DNA of 52,249 bases, from NCBI GenBank assembly GCA_017522065.1, contig JAFXAD010000047.1, positions 1-52,249 on the forward strand, read 5' to 3'. The position numbers were made by a program, and so were the translations under genes. This document shows, piece by piece, positions 7,411 to 47,039 of this stretch. Source of the DNA: Bacteroidales bacterium (GTDB taxonomy: Bacteria > Bacteroidota > Bacteroidia > Bacteroidales > P3). The notes under the pieces are model-generated. The model saw nothing but the letters and a program-made list of their open reading frames with translations. It was not told the origin of the DNA and ran no database searches. Position 1 is the first letter of the stretch. Each line of letters opens with the position of its first letter.

Positions 7411-7965
7411 ATGCTGACTCTTGACGAAGTAATAGAAGGCTGCCGAAACGGTGATGCGACGATGCAAAAAGAACTGTACGACAGATACAGCGCCCGGTTC
7501 TATTCCATCTGTTTGCGTTATGCGCCCGATGCCGACGTCGCGAAAGACATGCTCATCGAAGGCTTCTTGACCATCTTTTCGGAGATAGAGACCTTCAGAG
7601 GGGAAGGGTCGTTCGAGGGGTGGATGCACGCCGTTATGCGTAGCGCTATTGTCGCCGAATACCGCCGCAACCGTAAGCACCGTGAGAGTGTGGCGTTGGA
7701 CGAGGCCGACGAAGTGGGTTCCCATACGTCGTCCCCGGAAAGCAGCATCGATTTGCGTTCCGCTCTTCAGGAAGCCATGAAAAAGCTGAGCGAAAAGGAA
7801 CGTGTCGCTTTTAACCTCGTGGCCGTCGACGGATATACCCTCGACGAGGCAGCGAAGCTGATAAAAGAACCGCTGTCGACGATAAAGACACGCTATTACA
7901 GCGCCAAAGAGAAAATGAGACTAATACTTTTGAAAAAAATAGGAAAAGACTATCTGAAAAAATGA
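7411..7965 (+). CDS. RNA polymerase ECF-type sigma factor
   Basis: A 184-residue ECF sigma factor. The sigma-2 region spans about residues 10-75 (LYDRYSARFYSICLRYAPD, then DMLIEGFLTIF and GSFEGWMHAVMRS), and the sigma-4 region about 115-170 (LSEKERVAFNLVAVDGYTLD, then a helix-turn-helix and TIKTRYYSAKEKMR). It has no extra C-terminal domain. No housekeeping TAnnTTTG box is visible upstream, consistent with a self-activated ECF promoter. The stop overlaps the start of the next gene (ATGA at 7962-7965), so the two are co-translated, as is usual for a sigma factor and its anti-sigma or membrane regulator. The regulon is unknown; nearby secreted-protein genes are possible targets. Confidence 0.93.
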   Translation: MLTLDEVIEGCRNGDATMQKELYDRYSARFYSICLRYAPDADVAKDMLIEGFLTIFSEIETFRGEGSFEGWMHAVMRSAIVAEYRRNRKHRESVALDEADEVGSHTSSPESSIDLRSALQEAMKKLSEKERVAFNLVAVDGYTLDEAAKLIKEPLSTIKTRYYSAKEKMRLILLKKIGKDYLKK

Positions 7966-8837
7966 AAGACATAGAAGACATATTCCGCGAGCAATTTGCC
8001 GATGCCGAAACGCAACCTCCAGCCGATGCGTGGCAGACTATAGAAAACCGTCTGCCCAAGCGGATGGCGGCAAAACGGCGTAAGGGGAGAAGGCTATTGT
8101 CGTATGCCATCGCTGCGGTCGGTGTCGTTGCCGCAGTGACGGTTGCGGTTGCTCTGCTGCACGACAATACGGAAGTTGAAGAAAAGACTATCGTAGCCCA
8201 GACGTCGATCGAGAACGTCCGGCAAGTGCCGTCATCCGTCACCGACATCCCGCAGGTGAGCACGGAACAGGAAAAGCAATCGTCGGTGCCGGTCGTCAAA
8301 AAAGATGCCGGCAACCAGACCGTCGAGGTCGTGAAACAGGAAACCAATACCGCAAAACTTGCTGAGCGACAATCGGTAGCCAATCAGCAGCGACCTTCGC
8401 AACCTCAAACTGTGGTAGGTAAGAGCGCAACCATCCGGTCGGAAAATGTCGCCGAAAACTCCGCCCCCGATGTAGAAAAGTATGAGATTCCTGACGAAGA
8501 GACCTCGCACAGCATCGCCGCGGAAACCAACCCTACGGCCGAAAAAGAGACATCGGAGCCGATACAGCAGCGTCCCGAGCAACAAAAGATTGTCATACCG
8601 AATCTTGTGACGCCCAACGGCGACGGATACAACGACTGCTGGGTGATTCCCGATTTGGAGAAATACGGTCCGATGCAGGTACAGATCTACACGGCGCAAA
8701 GCAAGCGAGTCTATTCGTCGCAGGACTATAGGAACGATTTTTGCTTCGAGGGCCTTCCCGACGGCAATTACTTTTATATTATTGTCTTCAAAGAACTCAA
8801 CCGTACCCTCCGCGGCGTACTGGTCGTGAAGAGATAG
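7962..8837 (+). CDS. Single-pass membrane protein with anti-sigma-like N-terminus and T9SS type B (CHU_C) C-terminal domain
   Basis: A 291-residue protein with no N-terminal signal peptide. Residues 1-44 are cytoplasmic and amphipathic (DIEDIFREQFADAE, then AWQTIENRLP and a basic cluster). This layout is common in Bacteroidetes proteins encoded right after an ECF sigma factor. A single transmembrane helix spans about 45-66. Residues 70-205 are a polar, Gln/Glu/Thr-rich periplasmic linker. Residues 210-291 (PNLVTPNGDGYNDCW, then IYTAQSKRVYSS and GLPDGNYFYIIV) match the gliding-motility-associated C-terminal domain that T9SS uses as a type B sorting signal. With a membrane anchor at the other end this copy cannot be released like ordinary cargo. 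I infer an anti-sigma or co-sensor that presents a T9SS-type domain in the periplasm. Confidence 0.8.
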   Translation: MKDIEDIFREQFADAETQPPADAWQTIENRLPKRMAAKRRKGRRLLSYAIAAVGVVAAVTVAVALLHDNTEVEEKTIVAQTSIENVRQVPSSVTDIPQVSTEQEKQSSVPVVKKDAGNQTVEVVKQETNTAKLAERQSVANQQRPSQPQTVVGKSATIRSENVAENSAPDVEKYEIPDEETSHSIAAETNPTAEKETSEPIQQRPEQQKIVIPNLVTPNGDGYNDCWVIPDLEKYGPMQVQIYTAQSKRVYSSQDYRNDFCFEGLPDGNYFYIIVFKELNRTLRGVLVVKR

Positions 8838-38756: not shown

Positions 38757-38833
38757 ATGAAAATTAATGTTTTGAGGAGGCAGTGTGCCATGATGATGAA
38801 AAACATTCGCAAAAAGCAAAGGGCTCCTTTCTT

Positions 38834-40651: not shown

Positions 40652-40676
40652 GATTTATAAAACATGGGATGTCAGA

Positions 40677-40707
40677 TTTGGGATTGAAACTGTGTATTAT
40701 ATATTTG
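40677..40707 (+). promoter_or_regulatory. Consensus Bacteroidetes promoter
   Basis: TTTG (40677-40680), exactly 19 bases, then TATATTTG (40700-40707): a full match to the housekeeping consensus. It sits 20 bases before ATG 40728 and fixes that start. Confidence 0.85.
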
Positions 40708-40727: not shown

Positions 40728-42071
40728 ATGTGGCCGAAATTGACTATACTGCTTTTGATGATGATGTCTGCTGCTGAGATTCACTGTCAGCAGGACTCGC
40801 TGTTGGTGCTGAGCGGCAGGGTGCTCTGCTCGGGACGCCCTGTGCCGTACGCCGCGCTTCAACTGCAAGGCTCGTCGGTAGGGGTGCACTGTAACGATGC
40901 TGGCGAGTATCTGCTCAAGATTCCTCAGGGCCGGGAACGTGATACCGTGACGGTCCGCTCGTTAGGGTACGAAGGGCGGAAAGTGCCTGTCGGCAAGCTG
41001 TTGAAGAATGGTGATGTGCGCCTTAAGGCTCGGGCTATTGAACTGAAAACGGTTACTGTTTCCGATTACGGCACTGCATACCAGTTGCTTCTTGCTGCGG
41101 TGGAAGGTATAAAACAGAATTATCACCAACAAACGGCATGGTCGACATTCTTCTACCGCGATTGGCGTGCTGTCGACGGCGAGTTGTTCCTCTTTGACGA
41201 GGCGGTGATGTGCGTCCAGCGATGTCCCTATTCGCAATATGCCGACAAACGCGGTTATCTGCTGGACCCTTCGCAGCGTGAAATGGAGAGCAACATCAAA
41301 ACCATCCTGCGGCACAGGCTATTGGTCTACGACCGTAAATTACTCGAAAGCAAGATTGTACGAGGACGCGGATGCGATCAGATGCTCGCCTATTCGGACA
41401 ATGTGGACTTTTTCGACCCCGTGGCCACTCCCCAGGCCAGCTATGCCCTTGCTGAACGCATTCTGCGGCAGCACCGCTTCGAACCGATACGTACGTTTGT
41501 CGATGACGGCGAGGTGTATTATCTGCTCCGATCGGTGGGCCCTTGCCGCACTCCCAAGGCCCGCACCAACTATGAATACACAATCCGACGGCGCGACTTG
41601 GCACTGGTGCGCCTGGTGTCTTCGAAACAGACCTTCCGCCACCGTGCACCGACCGACCCCTGGGTCAACTGGTACTACAACACGATGATAGACGAGACCG
41701 ACTCATCGGTATGGACATACGCAGTGCGCAACGGACACTACACGCTGACGCATTACTACAATGCAACGTCGTCGAGGCTGGAGTCGAGCCGCAACGGACA
41801 TGATGGGGAAAAGCAGCATTGGATGCAGTGTCACGAGTGGGTACTTACCGACTTTGACATGATTGGTGCCAATGGGAACAATGACGAAAACAACGATAGG
41901 CAGGTGCCTGTACATCCACAGTTGCTGCCCAGTGCATTTGGAATCAGCAGCTACGACAAGGATTTCTGGGGGCGATACAATACGATACCCATCGACTCGC
42001 TGCCACTGCAGCTGCTGAAACAAAAATATAGTAAGGCAGCCTCCAAAAAATCGTTTAATTATCTTCGTTGA
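40728..42071 (+). CDS. Carboxypeptidase-regulatory-like domain envelope protein
   Basis: A 447-residue exported protein with signal peptide ending AAEIHCQ. Residues ~25-95 (LSGRVLCSGRPVPYAALQLQ, then NDAGEYLLKIP and SLGYEGRKV) form a CarboxypepD_reg-like beta-sandwich. This module is typical of SusC N-termini and of stand-alone Bacteroidetes outer-membrane proteins. The remaining ~340 residues (TAYQLLLAAVEGIKQNY, FYRDWRAVDGELFLFDEAVM, a basic middle, YEYTIRRRDLAL) match a family seen in Bacteroidales but with no function I can name. ATG 40728 is preferred because a perfect promoter ends 20 bases earlier; an upstream frame from 40617 would cross the REP hairpin and the promoter. The last ~12 codons lie inside a MITE-like element, so the natural C-terminus may have been replaced. 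Confidence 0.82.
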   Translation: MWPKLTILLLMMMSAAEIHCQQDSLLVLSGRVLCSGRPVPYAALQLQGSSVGVHCNDAGEYLLKIPQGRERDTVTVRSLGYEGRKVPVGKLLKNGDVRLKARAIELKTVTVSDYGTAYQLLLAAVEGIKQNYHQQTAWSTFFYRDWRAVDGELFLFDEAVMCVQRCPYSQYADKRGYLLDPSQREMESNIKTILRHRLLVYDRKLLESKIVRGRGCDQMLAYSDNVDFFDPVATPQASYALAERILRQHRFEPIRTFVDDGEVYYLLRSVGPCRTPKARTNYEYTIRRRDLALVRLVSSKQTFRHRAPTDPWVNWYYNTMIDETDSSVWTYAVRNGHYTLTHYYNATSSRLESSRNGHDGEKQHWMQCHEWVLTDFDMIGANGNNDENNDRQVPVHPQLLPSAFGISSYDKDFWGRYNTIPIDSLPLQLLKQKYSKAASKKSFNYLR

Positions 42072-42321: not shown

Positions 42322-42930
42322 ATGAGGACGAAACTGAATATACTGTTTTTGCTGTGCTGCCTGCTGCCACTTGCTGTTGTGGCGCAACAACCCGACACCG
42401 ATGTCGACAGCGTTTGGGTTGAAGGATTTGTTGTGGATGTGGCCACCAAGAATCCCATAACCATGTGCGAGGTGCAGTTTATGCAGGATGGCGAGGCCAA
42501 AGCCATCGTGTTCTGCGACGACAAGGGTTTTTACAGCGTTGGAATGATGCCTGTGGGGCTCTACAGCATCTCTGTCGTGGCGGAAGGCAAGTCGCTCCAT
42601 TATGCGGAACTGCAGCTTGCGCAAAGCTCATTGGTCAATATTGCCCTGGCTATGGACTCGCTGAAGTACAAAACCCTGAAGCCGGCGGTTGTCAATGCTG
42701 AACGACCCAATCCTAAAGCGGTTTACAAACCGATAGTCTCGCCCGACGATCCGCGCCTCTGGAACCTTAACAGTGTGGAGACTCTGATGCTGTCGGGTCC
42801 CGCAAGCAAAGACCTGAGCGGCGGCCCTACGTTGTCTGGTCTTGCCAGCCATAGGCCGGCGTGGTTGGATGTGCCGTTTGACACATTAAAAAAGTCACAA
42901 GCTCCAGTGGAGCGCGTGGAGGAGCCCTGA
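42322..42930 (+). CDS. Small envelope protein with carboxypeptidase-regulatory-like domain
   Basis: A 202-residue exported protein with signal peptide MRTKLNILFLLCCLLPLAVV then AQQ. Residues ~30-110 (VEGFVVDVATKNPITMCEVQ, CDDKGFYSVGMMPVGLYSIS, VVAEGKSLHYAELQL) form a CarboxypepD_reg/DUF4480-like beta-sandwich, like the plug-proximal domain of TonB-dependent receptors but without a barrel. The C-terminal ~80 residues (ERPNPKAVYKPIVSPDDPRL and following) are polar and end in Pro/Glu-rich sequence. A weak -7-like box (TTAGTTTG at 42285-42292) precedes the start. The MITE-like element ends 51 bases before the ATG. Its function is unknown; it may be a cell-surface or periplasmic accessory. Confidence 0.78.
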   Translation: MRTKLNILFLLCCLLPLAVVAQQPDTDVDSVWVEGFVVDVATKNPITMCEVQFMQDGEAKAIVFCDDKGFYSVGMMPVGLYSISVVAEGKSLHYAELQLAQSSLVNIALAMDSLKYKTLKPAVVNAERPNPKAVYKPIVSPDDPRLWNLNSVETLMLSGPASKDLSGGPTLSGLASHRPAWLDVPFDTLKKSQAPVERVEEP

Positions 42931-43780: not shown

Positions 43781-44812
43781 CTAAAGCACTAACAGAATCT
43801 CCTCGCGATTGCCTATCTGAAGGCGGAAGTAGTAGTCCGTCAGATGCAGCACAAGGCTGTGTTTGGGGAAGGGGTCGAGGATGCACAGCCCGTCGGCGAC
43901 ACCACTTGCCACAAGGTTCCCGCTCATGTCGTAGATCCTGACTGTCTCGCCCGTATTGCCGGTGATGATGATATTGTCGCCATTGATGGATAGGGCAAGT
44001 TTGCTGTCGGCAGCGGGTACGTATATCGTGTCGGAAGATGGCAACAGTTGCGAGATGTCGATAACCGGGAGGCGTTCAATAGAGGTGATTTTGGCGTTTG
44101 TGACGGAAGTCGGTGGCTCGTTTTCGTTTTCGTCATCGTTTTCGTCCAAAGTTGTTCCCGTTTTCGTTTTCGTGTCGTAGGCCTTTTCGTTCTCGTCTTC
44201 GTCTTTGTCTTTGTTTTCGTGCCATAGGCCTCCCCATTTGTTGCTGAAAATAATGTCCCACTGTGGGACGACAGCGATGGCGGTGGCTCCGGCCGTAATC
44301 AGAAGGACAAGGATAAGTACCGTGTACCGCATCTTTTTGATGGCCCTGTGCATGCGCTGATAGACGGCATCGCGGCTGGTGCCTATTTTCTGTCCAATCT
44401 CGTCGGCGTTGTAGCCCTCAAGGTAGAGTTGCATTAGCTGCTGGTCGTTGTCGCTGAGAGAGGCGATGTAGCTGTCGATAATGTTGGCATGGCTTTGCGA
44501 GTCGTCCTTCAGGCTGTTGGCTATGTGGTCGGTAAGAGGTTCTGTCGGGGGGCGCTTTGACCGTCCGATGCGGAAAAATGTAGATCGGGCTCTCCAGCCG
44601 ACCCATGCTCGTTCCTGCTGGGGCGATGCTTCGGGGCGCAGTTTGTCGAGATGGTTCCACAGGTCGATGGATACCTCTTGCATAAGGTCTTTGCAGCACT
44701 CGGTGTCCCTGCCTGAGCGACGCCAACACATACGCCACAGCATAGGGCGGTGACGGCTAAGTAGGGATGTGAATAGAGTCTCGCGGTCGGTCATCTGTGT
44801 TGGGTGAAGCAT
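43781..44812 (-). CDS. ECF sigma factor fused to a transmembrane helix and a sorting-domain-like C-terminus
   Basis: A 343-residue protein (326-337 if an internal Met is used; Met7 at 44794 is the main alternative). Residues ~8-85 form sigma-2 (LLSRHRPMLWRMCWRRS, then KDLMQEVSIDLWNHLDKLRP and WVGWRARSTFFRI). Residues ~117-162 form sigma-4 (LSDNDQQLMQLYLEGYNADE, IGTSRDAVYQRMHRAIKK). A hydrophobic helix (163-182) follows with almost no linker. Residues 199-233 are an acidic Glu/Asp/Lys/Asn low-complexity stretch encoded by the dispersed TTTTCG repeat. Residues 270-343 (LSINGDNIIITG, VRIYDMSGNLVASG, YFRLQIG) resemble the compact T9SS type A domain of the leucine-rich-repeat protein at 38862. The topology implies a DNA-binding sigma factor tethered to the inner membrane with a periplasmic domain. 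Release or membrane-bound action is unknown. Confidence 0.8.
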   Translation of the reverse strand: MLHPTQMTDRETLFTSLLSRHRPMLWRMCWRRSGRDTECCKDLMQEVSIDLWNHLDKLRPEASPQQERAWVGWRARSTFFRIGRSKRPPTEPLTDHIANSLKDDSQSHANIIDSYIASLSDNDQQLMQLYLEGYNADEIGQKIGTSRDAVYQRMHRAIKKMRYTVLILVLLITAGATAIAVVPQWDIIFSNKWGGLWHENKDKDEDENEKAYDTKTKTGTTLDENDDENENEPPTSVTNAKITSIERLPVIDISQLLPSSDTIYVPAADSKLALSINGDNIIITGNTGETVRIYDMSGNLVASGVADGLCILDPFPKHSLVLHLTDYYFRLQIGNREEILLVL

Positions 44813-44865
44813 TACTTATAATATACACATTTTTGACCCCGTATCTGACATGGTACTTGAAATAT

Positions 44866-45438
44866 TTATGATTTTTTGCCGAAAGTGCTGTCGATAAGGC
44901 GTGTGAATTCTTGGTAGGGGAGGGTGTCGGACAGTGGGGAAAGGGCTTGGGCCAGGTTGCGGTAGTACCAGTGGATGTCGCTTTTGCCGCCTGGGGTGTG
45001 GAAGCGGCTCCAGAGGTCGTCGCCAATGGTATGGTAGTCGGCCGCGATGGTGCGCATGTTCGAGAGCTTGTCGCCAAGAGCGACAATCATGCCGTCGCGG
45101 TCGCTGTCGGCTATCTTGTCGATTTGCAGCTGTTTGCGTTGGTGCCAGGAGAGGCTGTGGTCTTTGGTGCCTGTGTCGTGAAGTACCAGTCGCGCCACGC
45201 GTGGGCCGAAGAGGGTTTCGATCTGTTCGATGGTTGTATCGGTGTCCTCTACGGTGTCGTGAAGTATGGCTGCGGCGAGCAACTCGGGGTCGTTGGTTAT
45301 GGAAGCGACAATGGTGGCGGCTTCCATGGGGTGGACGATGTATGGGAATCCCTTTGCACGACGTTCGGTGCCGCTATGGGCCAGGATAGCAAATTGTGCA
45401 GCGCGGTCGAAGAGGCTGGTGTCTAAGGGGTTGTTCAT
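44866..45438 (-). CDS. HD-domain alarmone (ppGpp) hydrolase-like protein
   Basis: A 190-residue single-domain protein of the MESH1/SpoT-hydrolase type. Metal-binding residues are in place: H21, H36 (FPYIVHP), H60-D61 (AAILHDTVEDTDTT with E64-D65) and a downstream D in VALGDKLSNMR. Such enzymes remove the 3'-pyrophosphate of (p)ppGpp, or related modified nucleotides. The ATG at 45438 overlaps the stop of the upstream synthetase gene by four bases, so it is translated with it. An alternative start at 45483 lies inside the synthetase gene and is unlikely. Synthetase plus hydrolase as separate overlapping genes resembles either a split Rel-type pair or a toxSAS-antitoxin pair. Sequence alone does not decide between them. 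Confidence 0.88.
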   Translation of the reverse strand: MNNPLDTSLFDRAAQFAILAHSGTERRAKGFPYIVHPMEAATIVASITNDPELLAAAILHDTVEDTDTTIEQIETLFGPRVARLVLHDTGTKDHSLSWHQRKQLQIDKIADSDRDGMIVALGDKLSNMRTIAADYHTIGDDLWSRFHTPGGKSDIHWYYRNLAQALSPLSDTLPYQEFTRLIDSTFGKKS

Positions 45439-46586
45439 AGTATGTTCCTTTTCAAGGGGCCTTTTTCTCGCCTCAGCATACAAGCAAGCTTGTCTGCGTT
45501 CGGCTTAACGAAAAAGTTTGTTTTTTGGGCTTGCTGGTAGATGCGTGCGGCGCGCTGGATGTTGTAGTCCGATTCGCCATAGAGGGAGTCGAACATGCGA
45601 ACGAGTCCCGCTTCGCCAAAGCCTTGCTTGAGGATATGGACGATGCAGATGTTCTGCAGGGCGACGGAGTAGGCGATGATGTCGAGTCCCGTTCCGGCGA
45701 GTTGGATGAGGGCGAGCTGGTAGGCACTGTCGCTGTTCTCTATGCGCATGCGTTCGATGTCGCCAATGGTCTTCATTCCCATCTGGAGGAGCACTTTATA
45801 GTATGGCATGATGCTGTCGTCGTATATCTCAGCCTGGTTGATGGTGGCAATCTTGTCGACGAGCCGTTTGAAGGGCTGGAGTTCGCTGTAGGAGCGGAAG
45901 GTGTCGCCGTTGAGGGGCACTTCGTTGAAGTTGCCGCTGGCGACGAGCGACTGCACGTTGCGGCGGTAGTCGTTGATTTCCTTGCGTATGCGGCTGAACT
46001 GTTCGTCGGCGAGTTCGAGGATGCCGGCGAGGCGGTTGAGGCTGCGCTGGTAATGGATGGGGATTTCGACATCGCTCTTGTAGCCGGTGTCGTGCTGCAT
46101 GTTGGCCCATACGTGCTGGAGGGCGGTACGCATCTGCAGTTCGAAGCGCAGGGTGTTTAGCTGTGGCGTCGAGGGGTCGTCGCAGATGCTTTTGGGCAGA
46201 CGGCAGATGTAGTGGAGCGACATGTAGCCGAAGCGGTCGATTTCGAGCATCTTGCGTTTGTCGACGGAGTTTTCCCAGTCGATGTCGAACAGTTTTTCGG
46301 CAAGGGCGGAGATTATGTCGACTTCGTCGCTGAAAAAGGTTATGATACGAAGGCCGACGATGTCGGTGATGTCTTCGACGGTGCGGTATTTGTAGCCTTT
46401 GAGTTCAAGTTTGCCAGTGAGACTTTTTTCGGTCTTTATGCGTCCTTCGAGGCCTGTGACGATGATGCCGTTGTCGGCCAGGCATTTTTGAATGGAATCA
46501 AGGGCGATGTCCTTGATTCTGTTGTAGACTGGGAGATTGTCGCGATACTGGTCGAGTATCATTTCGCCGTGCATGTCCAGCTTCAT
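45435..46586 (-). CDS. RelA/SpoT-domain nucleotide pyrophosphokinase with long C-terminal extension
   Basis: A 383-residue protein. Residues ~30-170 are a RelA_SpoT synthetase domain: GRIKTEKSLTGKL (48-60), DIVGLRII (75-82), GYMSLHY (120-126) and FELQMRT (148-154) with the catalytic Glu, followed by LQHVWANMQHDTGY. All match active-site segments of (p)ppGpp synthetases and small alarmone synthetases. There is no hydrolase, TGS or ACT domain. The ~200-residue C-terminal extension is helical (NRLAGILELADEQFSRIRKE, then IKTIGDIERMRIE-like KTIGDIERMRIEN) and of unknown role. The hydrolase gene follows with a four-base overlap. A promoter (46706-46713) lies ~120 bases upstream, so the pair forms its own operon. 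Confidence 0.88.
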   Translation of the reverse strand: MKLDMHGEMILDQYRDNLPVYNRIKDIALDSIQKCLADNGIIVTGLEGRIKTEKSLTGKLELKGYKYRTVEDITDIVGLRIITFFSDEVDIISALAEKLFDIDWENSVDKRKMLEIDRFGYMSLHYICRLPKSICDDPSTPQLNTLRFELQMRTALQHVWANMQHDTGYKSDVEIPIHYQRSLNRLAGILELADEQFSRIRKEINDYRRNVQSLVASGNFNEVPLNGDTFRSYSELQPFKRLVDKIATINQAEIYDDSIMPYYKVLLQMGMKTIGDIERMRIENSDSAYQLALIQLAGTGLDIIAYSVALQNICIVHILKQGFGEAGLVRMFDSLYGESDYNIQRAARIYQQAQKTNFFVKPNADKLACMLRREKGPLKRNIL

Positions 46587-46736: not shown

Positions 46737-47039
46737 TCAGACGATGGTGATGATGTTCGAGAACCCGGTGATGTCGAACACTTCTTTGACTTGCGGGTTC
46801 ATATTGCGCATGACCATTTTGCCGCCACGGGCCATCACGCTTTTCTGTAGGGTGAGGAAAAGGCGCAGGCCTTGCGACGAGGTGTAGGTCATGCCAGTGC
46901 AGTCGATGTCGATATCTGGTTTGTCGCCTTGCATAAGAGGGGCGATGTCTTGTTGGAACTGGTCGGCATTGGAGGTGTCGAGACGACCGTCGAGGGTCAC
47001 CATTGTCTTGGAATCAGCAGTATTAATTTTTATATTCAT
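46737..47039 (-). CDS. STAS-domain protein (anti-sigma factor antagonist type)
   Basis: A 100-residue cytoplasmic STAS domain (VTLDGRLDTSNADQFQQDIA, DIDIDCTGMTYTSSQGLRLF, FDITGFSNIITIV). The conserved loop carries Ser54/Ser55, where SpoIIAA-like proteins are phosphorylated by an anti-sigma kinase. In Bacteroidetes such proteins usually work in partner-switching or as parts of larger signalling complexes; no kinase or phosphatase gene is beside it. A promoter box lies at 47165-47172, leaving a ~120-base leader that includes the GTCGGC hairpin repeat. It is upstream of the alarmone operon on the same strand, but that operon has its own promoter. Confidence 0.92.
   Translation of the reverse strand: MNIKINTADSKTMVTLDGRLDTSNADQFQQDIAPLMQGDKPDIDIDCTGMTYTSSQGLRLFLTLQKSVMARGGKMVMRNMNPQVKEVFDITGFSNIITIV

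Follow-up and report, generated by a model that had tools for sequence, protein, structure and literature searches.

The DNA analysed here, a 52,249-nucleotide contig of a Bacteroidales bacterium (JAFXAD010000047.1; hereafter, the window), carries on its minus strand a gene for a 343-residue protein, in which an extracytoplasmic function (ECF) sigma factor, a membrane helix, an acidic linker and a C-terminal beta domain follow one another in a single chain (Table 1). The last domain resembles the C-terminal domains (CTDs) of cargo proteins of the type IX secretion system (T9SS). The plus strand of the same interval contains stops, and an alternative start, M7 at position 44794, agrees with the starts of several relatives. 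The best explanation of the comparisons described below is that the protein would act as a one-piece signalling device, in which an ECF sigma factor has been covalently joined to the membrane anchor and the periplasmic tail of a former anti-sigma partner.

In the window protein, the Sigma70_r2 and Sigma70_r4_2 matches exceed the curated Pfam cut-offs, and TIGR02937 is the sole NCBIfam model above its own cut-off among the matches listed. Regions 2 and 4 are thus the only sigma regions above curated cut-offs, as in the ECF (group 4) sigma-70 factors. The highest-scoring 19-residue hydrophobic window begins at residue 164 (mean 2.64), and no such window starting outside residues 145–185 scores above 0.97. 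The sigma profile match ends at residue 162, leaving a single residue before this segment. In the following linker, residues 191–250 contain 16 D/E as compared with 8 K/R, and the C-terminal domain includes VRIYDMSGNLVASG at residues 291–304. The cleavable N-terminal signal peptide of T9SS cargo was not found, with the sigma domain occupying the N-terminus and 161–185 being the sole strongly hydrophobic segment, as judged from hydrophobicity and domain placement. A low-confidence structure model, with a predicted local distance difference test score (pLDDT) below 50 across residues 166–270, shows a continuous helix at 147–177 and strands within 262–342, and the fold comparison made with it covered essentially the sigma part.

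Table 1. Features of the window, with the tethered sigma factor gene and its parts first
Feature	Position	Strand	Remarks
Fusion gene: ECF sigma, membrane helix, acidic linker and CTD-like domain	43781..44812	-	343 aa
Sigma-70 region 2, residues 17-81	44570..44764	-	Pfam PF04542 Sigma70_r2, E 8.6e-7
Sigma-70 region 4, residues 111-161	44330..44482	-	Pfam PF08281 Sigma70_r4_2, E 4.4e-8
Membrane helix, residues 164-182	44267..44323	-	From hydrophobicity; no linker to the last sigma-4 helix; VVPQW next
Acidic, fast-evolving, probably disordered periplasmic linker, residues 183-255	44048..44266	-	
C-terminal beta domain, residues 256-343, with Cys310	43784..44047	-	hhalign homology to type A CTDs
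ECF-type promoter motif, TGTCAGATAC-N12-GTGTATATTAT	44818..44850	-	Just 5' of the first ATG of the fusion gene
Second motif copy, TGTCAGATTT-N12-GTGTATTAT	40670..40700	+	0 mismatches; upstream of the gene at 40728
Secreted CarbopepD_reg_2 protein, 447 aa, probable regulon member	40728..42071	+	
Separate ECF sigma, 184 aa, of an analogous two-gene system	7411..7965	+	
Partner of that sigma, 291 aa: short N-terminal segment, hydrophobic segment, linker, CHU_C/type B CTD	7962..8837	+	CHU_C E 1.3e-16

A homology search with the window protein covered 99 related genomes, of which 58 belong to the same genus. Some relatives matched most of its length at 36–64% identity, whereas others, with longer open reading frames, matched through the membrane helix. 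From a reading of the search listing, 24 of the 58 same-genus genomes were classed as fusion-bearing, and several fusions are adjacent in some genomes, with three on contig 6 of G056. Together with proteins retrieved through the DNA motif described below, the catalogue comprises 53 non-identical fusions from this one Bacteroidales genus (37 fetched by homology and 16 by motif), of which 51 are complete, with lengths of 320–815 aa. Among 23 representatives, PF04542, PF08281 and TIGR02937 matched 21, 23 and 23, respectively, at the E-values used. The order sigma, membrane helix, linker, beta domain is kept among the relatives, with the exception of the protein at locus L060, which carries a different tail. 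Thus, the single polypeptide proposed by an earlier sequence-only reading of this DNA was borne out by Pfam and NCBIfam matches, by hydrophobicity and by relatives. The draft state of the genome, in 62 contigs, would allow two genes to have been joined by an assembly error or a frameshift. Since 53 non-identical same-genus fusions from many assemblies share one junction, such an artefact is ruled out for practical purposes.

The junction itself is uniform. The gap from the end of the sigma profile match to the best hydrophobic window measures exactly one residue in 51 of the 53 fusions, and 0 and 2 in the remaining two; as the profile end was fixed by the chosen query residues 7–162, the constant feature is the spacing from the end of sigma-4. 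Within and behind the helix, A178 is conserved among the 23 representatives, as are V182, P183, W185 and R186 (at least 90%), the window protein having D at 186. The mean net charge across the fusions is +4.9 inside and +0.9 outside, which indicates a topology with the N-terminus in and the C-terminus out. In three close pairs (L042, L043 and L044), the ratio of nonsynonymous to synonymous substitution rates (dN/dS) was 0.07–0.16 for the sigma part, 0.12–0.22 for the tail domain and 0.25–0.44 for the linker. The tails fall into size classes, giving proteins of 320–392 aa (linker and one C-terminal domain), 492 aa and 737–815 aa, and BspA-type LRR_5 repeats were found in 7 of the 23 representatives (best E 2.7e-71). 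Outside the genus, a scan of 393 genomes of the order with a sigma-plus-helix profile gave matches that were confined to the sigma part and reach only profile position 168 of 186; because at most eight candidates were scored per genome, the absence of the fusion there is not proven. In the same scan, the same-genus genome G109 gave no fusion.

The same sigma group also occurs as separate genes. These split sigma genes end at about 154–167 aa and overlap a second gene by a few bases. Seven long partners of this kind were found (L120, L161, L107, L165, L062, L145 and L129; 343–669 aa), consisting of an N-terminal segment of about 42 residues, a helix and a tail homologous to the fusion tails. 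Residues 42–371 of the L129 partner, starting at the helix, are 58.5% identical to the tail of fusion L053 over 340 aa, and the same partner is 60.1% identical to the tail of fusion L052 over 321 residues. Similarly, the L161 partner (669 aa) matches the tails of the fusions of about 800 aa at 40–43% over 643–661 aa. A profile of the fusion helix region finds the partner helix in six of the seven (E <0.001), the L129 match being weak (E 0.45). Of 16 partners, 15 carry the motif M[STM][DE]G[LF]x[EQ]W near the N-terminus, within their first 50 residues; these comprise all seven long ones and also short ones without a BLASTP match to fusion tails. After residue 140, it occurs in none of the 53 fusions. 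We infer that the segment of about 42 residues is a sigma-binding anti-sigma part, which is dispensed with in the fused proteins. By virtue of these partners, which combine the segment, the helix and a homologous tail, a fusion is, on the sequence comparisons, a sigma factor joined to the anchor and tail of an anti-sigma factor, minus the anti-sigma-like segment.

A single origin of the fusion was rejected: in the sigma-domain tree, from which 10 of 76 rows, mostly long-branched, had been removed beforehand, monophyly of 51 fused against 15 free sigmas failed the approximately unbiased test (p 0.00028). The tree needs at least three changes between the fused and free states. Head and tail swapping may also yield non-monophyly, and fusion cannot be distinguished from fission in this tree. 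A further split pair was observed at L103, L123, L127, L139, L143 and L149, with a sigma of 166–167 aa and a partner MEQDYKEQLRMMTEGLGEW...; this pair uses the variant motif TGTAAGATTT...GCGTATTAT, and downstream of it lies a large secreted-looking gene, CarboxypepD-like by reading.

ECF sigma factors act on a specific two-part promoter, in most cases also on that of their own gene. The DNA ahead of the fusion genes shares the motif TGTCAGATTT-N12-GTGTATTAT. With at most four mismatches, it precedes 47 of the 53 fusions, namely 33 from the homology set of 37 and 14 from the motif set of 16, with a spacer of 12 in 46 of the 47; in 20 shuffles of each upstream stretch, the best had four mismatches once and otherwise five to eight. 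The position of the motif directly ahead of the fusion ATG suggests that autoregulation is likely. The window holds two matches against 0.01 expected, and, with a looser motif, the window genome holds four against none for the reversed control. These four sites precede the fusion gene, the CarboxypepD gene at 40728, a leucine-rich repeat (LRR) cargo gene beside a sigma gene (contig 15) and a sigma gene directly (contig 58). No site was found for the window LRR gene at 38757 or for the gene at 42322.

Across the 99 genomes searched, 128 sites with at most two mismatches were found in 48 genomes, as compared with three for the reversed pattern. With fusion status taken from a reading of the listings, a site was present in 21 of the 24 fusion-bearing genomes of the genus and in 7 of the 34 others (p 5.6e-7); in one of those seven, G006, a sigma open reading frame behind the site is cut by the contig end. 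The 126 distinct sites are distributed as follows, in counts that are partly selected because many loci were fetched for holding the motif: 51 lie before sigma genes (39 fusions, 10 free and 2 cut by contig ends), 31 before a cluster of secreted LRR cargo, 16 before the CarboxypepD cluster to which the protein encoded at 40728 belongs, 19 before other genes (13 of them lipoprotein-like by reading) and 9 before no open reading frame. Sigma, LRR-cargo or CarboxypepD genes thus stand behind 98 of the 126; the LRR-type cluster was defined by BLASTP, with one member, L042, confirmed as LRR_5 by Pfam. In three of the seven split loci, the motif lies 8–10 bases before the sigma gene. Among loci L042–L066 and L100–L176, 38 of the 51 sigma genes have their start codon no more than 10 bases from the motif, as compared with 13 of the 66 other genes, of which 45 start 25–80 bases from the -10-like element. 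These close start codons hint that the sigma messages are likely to be leaderless.

Most tails resemble products of the predicted regulon. In a small database of 66 non-sigma proteins encoded behind the motif, 38 of the 53 tails have a BLASTP match at E <=1e-3, the shortest covering 24 residues. Nine long tails are 50–76% identical to a protein encoded behind the motif over 461–533 aa; since these matches begin at the first or second residue of the secreted protein, they include its signal-peptide region. For L060, the tail is not CTD-like and matches a co-regulated lipoprotein-like protein (E 1.2e-9; the best of 100 shuffles gave 0.0045). That a sensor tail resembles a regulon product shifts the interpretation away from a purely T9SS-centred one. 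We therefore entertain, as a tentative proposal with rather less than an even chance, that the sigma family carries tethered look-alikes, or decoys, of secreted regulon products across the inner membrane. A decoy tail would share the export or surface-assembly partners of the product, so that an occupied or cut decoy would report free capacity or product supply, and synthesis would be adjusted. New sensor tails would arise by capture of regulon members (LRR-CTD cargo, a CTD alone or a lipoprotein) and by tail swaps between paralogues, and the anti-sigma segment would have been lost upon fusion of the pair.

Alternatively, a tail might be the evolutionary leftover of a fusion with a neighbouring cargo gene and sense nothing, the sigma factor being freed by general turnover. 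In favour of this, tails are exchanged between paralogues: L049:12341-13483 and L054:3657-4808 have sigma parts that are 46% identical and tails that are 96% identical. In the same direction points a signal-peptide-like segment ahead of the cargo part, which a hand-made pattern finds in 8 of the 13 fusions of at least 480 aa, these being 8 of the 9 longest; the same pattern matches two split partners, the match in L145 being plainly spurious. A useless tail is, however, at odds with the low dN/dS of the tail domain given above, with the retention of the tail across 53 proteins and with the cysteines near the end of all 51 complete fusions, 27 of them carrying CxxxC within their final 110 residues and the other 24 a Cys within the final 80. 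We consider this explanation quite improbable.

Two observations on these regions may be added. In the long fusions (737–815 aa), the internal signal-peptide-like segment, with a Met just ahead of the LRR part, lies at residue 275 in L059, 274 in L056 and 277 in L163, and it is present in five more; internal cleavage or a second translation start could possibly yield free secreted cargo from the same gene. A redox or metal site at CxxxC was considered, as the motif is found in 27 of the 51 complete fusions and, within the last 75 residues, in 1 of 30 long co-regulated proteins. The idea was dropped because the window protein has a single Cys and 12 of 29 cargo proteins also have some Cys within their last 60 residues.

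For the C-terminal domain, the sequence-only reading had proposed the layout of a type A sorting domain. Of the profile searches bearing on that reading, those for Sigma70_r2 and Sigma70_r4_2 passed, as described above; the window domain alone matched TIGR04183 only partially, at 13.9–14.1 bits (E 0.035–0.041) as compared with a cut-off of 23, and for this reason it is classed as homologous to TIGR04183 and not as a member. Pfam Big_6 also matched the C-terminal part below cut-off. The likeness was tested against the CTDs of 25 cargo proteins (24 encoded behind the motif and the window LRR protein at 38757), of which 24 match TIGR04183 at E 0.1 (best 4.1e-16) and whose profile retrieves the solved T9SS CTDs of RgpB, RemZ, RemA and the 35 kDa hemin-binding protein. 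By hhalign, the C-terminal domains of the fusions as a set matched these cargo CTDs at 99.3%, the compact tails at 97.6% and the five proteins closest to that of the window at 93.5–95.6%, as compared with 1.6% and 5.0% in two control comparisons with an unrelated secreted domain (CarboxypepD). The full set of 24 tails also matched the gingipain RgpB CTD chains 5hfs and 7pq4 (E 5e-4). The compact tails matched the four classical CTDs of the window at only 36.8%, indicating that the tie to classical CTDs passes through the LRR cargo CTDs. In the PDB, the tail profiles also hit WD40/NHL and designed propellers; these hits were disregarded, as they were mostly summed weak repeats in which no stretch passed alone. 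These results firmly support, by profile comparison, homology of the window domain to the T9SS type A CTDs; the resemblance noted earlier therefore stands as homology and falls short of family membership.

This homology raises the alternative, a strong form of what the sequence-only reading had inferred, that the tail is a working T9SS signal, whose CTD docks with the secretion system on the PorV/Sov side. The tether would then report directly on T9SS capacity, and the release of sigma would begin with pulling or with sortase cleavage at the outer membrane. Besides the profile matches to cargo and RgpB CTDs, the presence of the system in the window genome favours it: a SprA/Sov homologue was found, together with 64 TIGR04183 matches, 60 of them over the cut-off. 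In P. gingivalis, moreover, PorA, a CTD protein, influences the PorXY-SigP route (PMC7712824). The evidence from the tails themselves is less favourable. The window sigma is not among the 64 matches, its domain remains under the TIGR04183 cut-off, and only 9 of the 24 tails match this model at E 0.1. The window tail is without the PNP motif of classical CTDs, as are 17 of the 25 cargo CTDs, and the lipoprotein-like tail of L060 would have no CTD to dock. In addition, the compact-tail profile A5 gave no CTD chain among the 60 of 111 PDB matches listed. We regard docking with the T9SS as unlikely, and yet as the strongest of the competitors to the reading that follows.

We favour, as moderately probable, an autoregulated IutY-like sigma factor that is held by its tether, carries a product-like sensor tail and is freed by intramembrane proteolysis. 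Sigma-4 fused straight onto the membrane helix would keep the sigma factor inactive at the inner membrane. The tail would sense a periplasmic event at a partner that serves tail-like secreted proteins as well, such as a change in how far this partner is occupied, exported or processed; our favoured guess is that the tail responds to being occupied by an export or assembly partner that its look-alike products also use. This event would expose the protein to a site-1 protease such as Prc, after which RseP would cut within the membrane and free the sigma factor. Once free, the sigma would activate the gene that encodes it and a small regulon, made up of surface LRR/T9SS cargo, CarboxypepD proteins and lipoproteins, and the positive autoregulation would make the system a switch.

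The sigma parts are intact, and membrane-bound transcription regulators that work without cleavage exist. The sigma factor might therefore be active while tethered, with polymerase and promoters drawn to the membrane in the manner of ToxR or CadC. With a one-residue gap in nearly all fusions, however, no linker is left to reach DNA and polymerase, and this, together with the continuous helix in the low-confidence model, makes it unlikely that the tethered sigma works at a promoter. Release by intramembrane proteolysis is established for the same architecture in IutY of P. putida, a close precedent, in which truncations that keep the helix require RseP, and longer ones also require Prc (PMC5411451). 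Activity in the tethered state is accordingly improbable, more so than docking with the T9SS.

Several observations weigh against release by proteolysis of an autoregulated, product-like sensor. Homologues of Peptidase_M50 (the RseP family) and Prc are present in the window genome, as they are in 14 and 11, respectively, of 14 control genomes; being widespread, their presence proves little. The full-length structure model is poor (mean pLDDT 53.4; predicted template modelling score 0.28). For 15 of the 53 tails, BLASTP found no counterpart among the co-regulated proteins, and for the window tail the match covers only 24 residues (E 1e-5), although the profile comparison to cargo CTDs backs this short match. 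The split partners L107 and L165 stop before the CTD-like part. At the DNA level, the motif of the window gene itself has four mismatches to the consensus in a fixed frame, owing to an extra TA, and 6 of the 53 fusions have no close motif within 160 bases, although for L173, which is among these, a perfect site is found 143 bases ahead of the start. Four split loci of the seven have the motif not directly ahead of the sigma gene but before a CarboxypepD gene in the same direction, 693–1984 bases further upstream. The site counts, as noted above, are partly selected, and reading of the predicted promoter by this sigma rather than by a paralogue is itself inferred.

Elsewhere in the window, the sequence-only reading had seen one design used twice, here and at 7411–8837. 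The latter locus does hold a sigma factor and a membrane protein with a CTD (Table 1), but this CTD is of type B, the genes are separate and the partner has no significant BLASTP similarity to the window fusion. Judged by sequence similarity, the genuine two-gene counterparts of the fusion are the split loci of sister genomes. The arrangement at 7411–8837 is Dma-like in layout, with a T9SS sorting domain replacing the barrel. Just upstream of the sigma gene, at 44866–46586, an HD_4 gene overlaps a RelA_SpoT gene, perhaps representing a (p)ppGpp enzyme split in two, and a STAS-domain gene lies at 46737–47039.

Compared with known systems, the fusions are closest in outline to hybrid ECF sigma factors. 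A FecR-like periplasmic domain is a feature of IutY-type hybrids. Pfam searches gave no FecR family, either for the window protein at E up to 1 or for the 23 representatives at E up to 0.01. The premise of the earlier reading that ECF sigma factors are usually soluble is right for most of them and overlooks the tethered IutY, ECF52 and Dma3. IutY of P. putida (ECF243) is a hybrid of sigma factor, transmembrane helix and periplasmic part that is freed by Prc and RseP (PMC5411451, PMC8999054). Like IutY, the window protein joins a cytosolic ECF sigma, a single membrane segment and a periplasmic regulatory domain in one chain. Whereas IutY has a periplasmic anti-sigma domain and responds to the outer-membrane receptor for aerobactin, the fusions carry a CTD-like, LRR/CTD or lipoprotein-like tail, belong to Bacteroidales, have split homologues and have a different predicted regulon. 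A partner receptor was not identified for the fusions, no search aimed at such a gene having been made.

For Bacteroidota, Dma3 of Bacteroides thetaiotaomicron is described as a member of the Dma family that carries a sigma domain at its N-terminus (PMC13088901); it shares with the window protein both the phylum and a sigma domain in the same chain. Characteristic of the Dma family are an ECF21-type sigma and, as is said of its members, a C-terminal beta-barrel; the window fusion, compared by description only, ends instead in the CTD homologue of about 88 residues. ECF52 (SCO4117), ECF48 and ECF53 of Actinobacteria have a sigma, a C-terminal membrane anchor and a long extracytoplasmic tail, and autoregulation and proteolytic release have been proposed for them (PMC5826349, PMC8999054). 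They differ in having a zinc-finger anti-sigma domain between sigma and helix, for which the one-residue gap of the fusions leaves no counterpart. In the PorA-PorXY-SigP system of P. gingivalis, a CTD protein acts upstream of an ECF sigma, which in turn governs the T9SS genes as well as the gene that encodes it (PMC7712824). That system consists of separate proteins and a two-component system, whereas here the sigma and the CTD-like domain form one chain; its regulon comprises T9SS parts, whereas the one predicted here comprises cargo-like proteins.

Tethered sigma factors have so far been studied in a few single cases. With dozens of fused forms and seven or more long split forms of one sigma group, a single genus offers a natural comparison of an anti-sigma hold with a covalent tether, and the conserved motif provides a first regulon prediction for other genomes of the genus. 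The likeness of most tails to predicted regulon proteins puts into testable form the question of how Bacteroidota match the synthesis of surface proteins to secretion capacity; in a gut or rumen bacterium, such a sigma factor may allow the cell to monitor the condition of the proteins that it secretes. A sigma-CTD fusion was not described among the titles and abstract starts listed from the open-licence PMC literature. Tethered sigma factors with established or presumed release by proteolysis are already known from IutY and ECF52/48/53, and Dma3 represents them in Bacteroidota. What is new here are the CTD-, LRR- and lipoprotein-like tails, the coexistence of split and fused homologues, and a predicted regulon that mirrors the tails.

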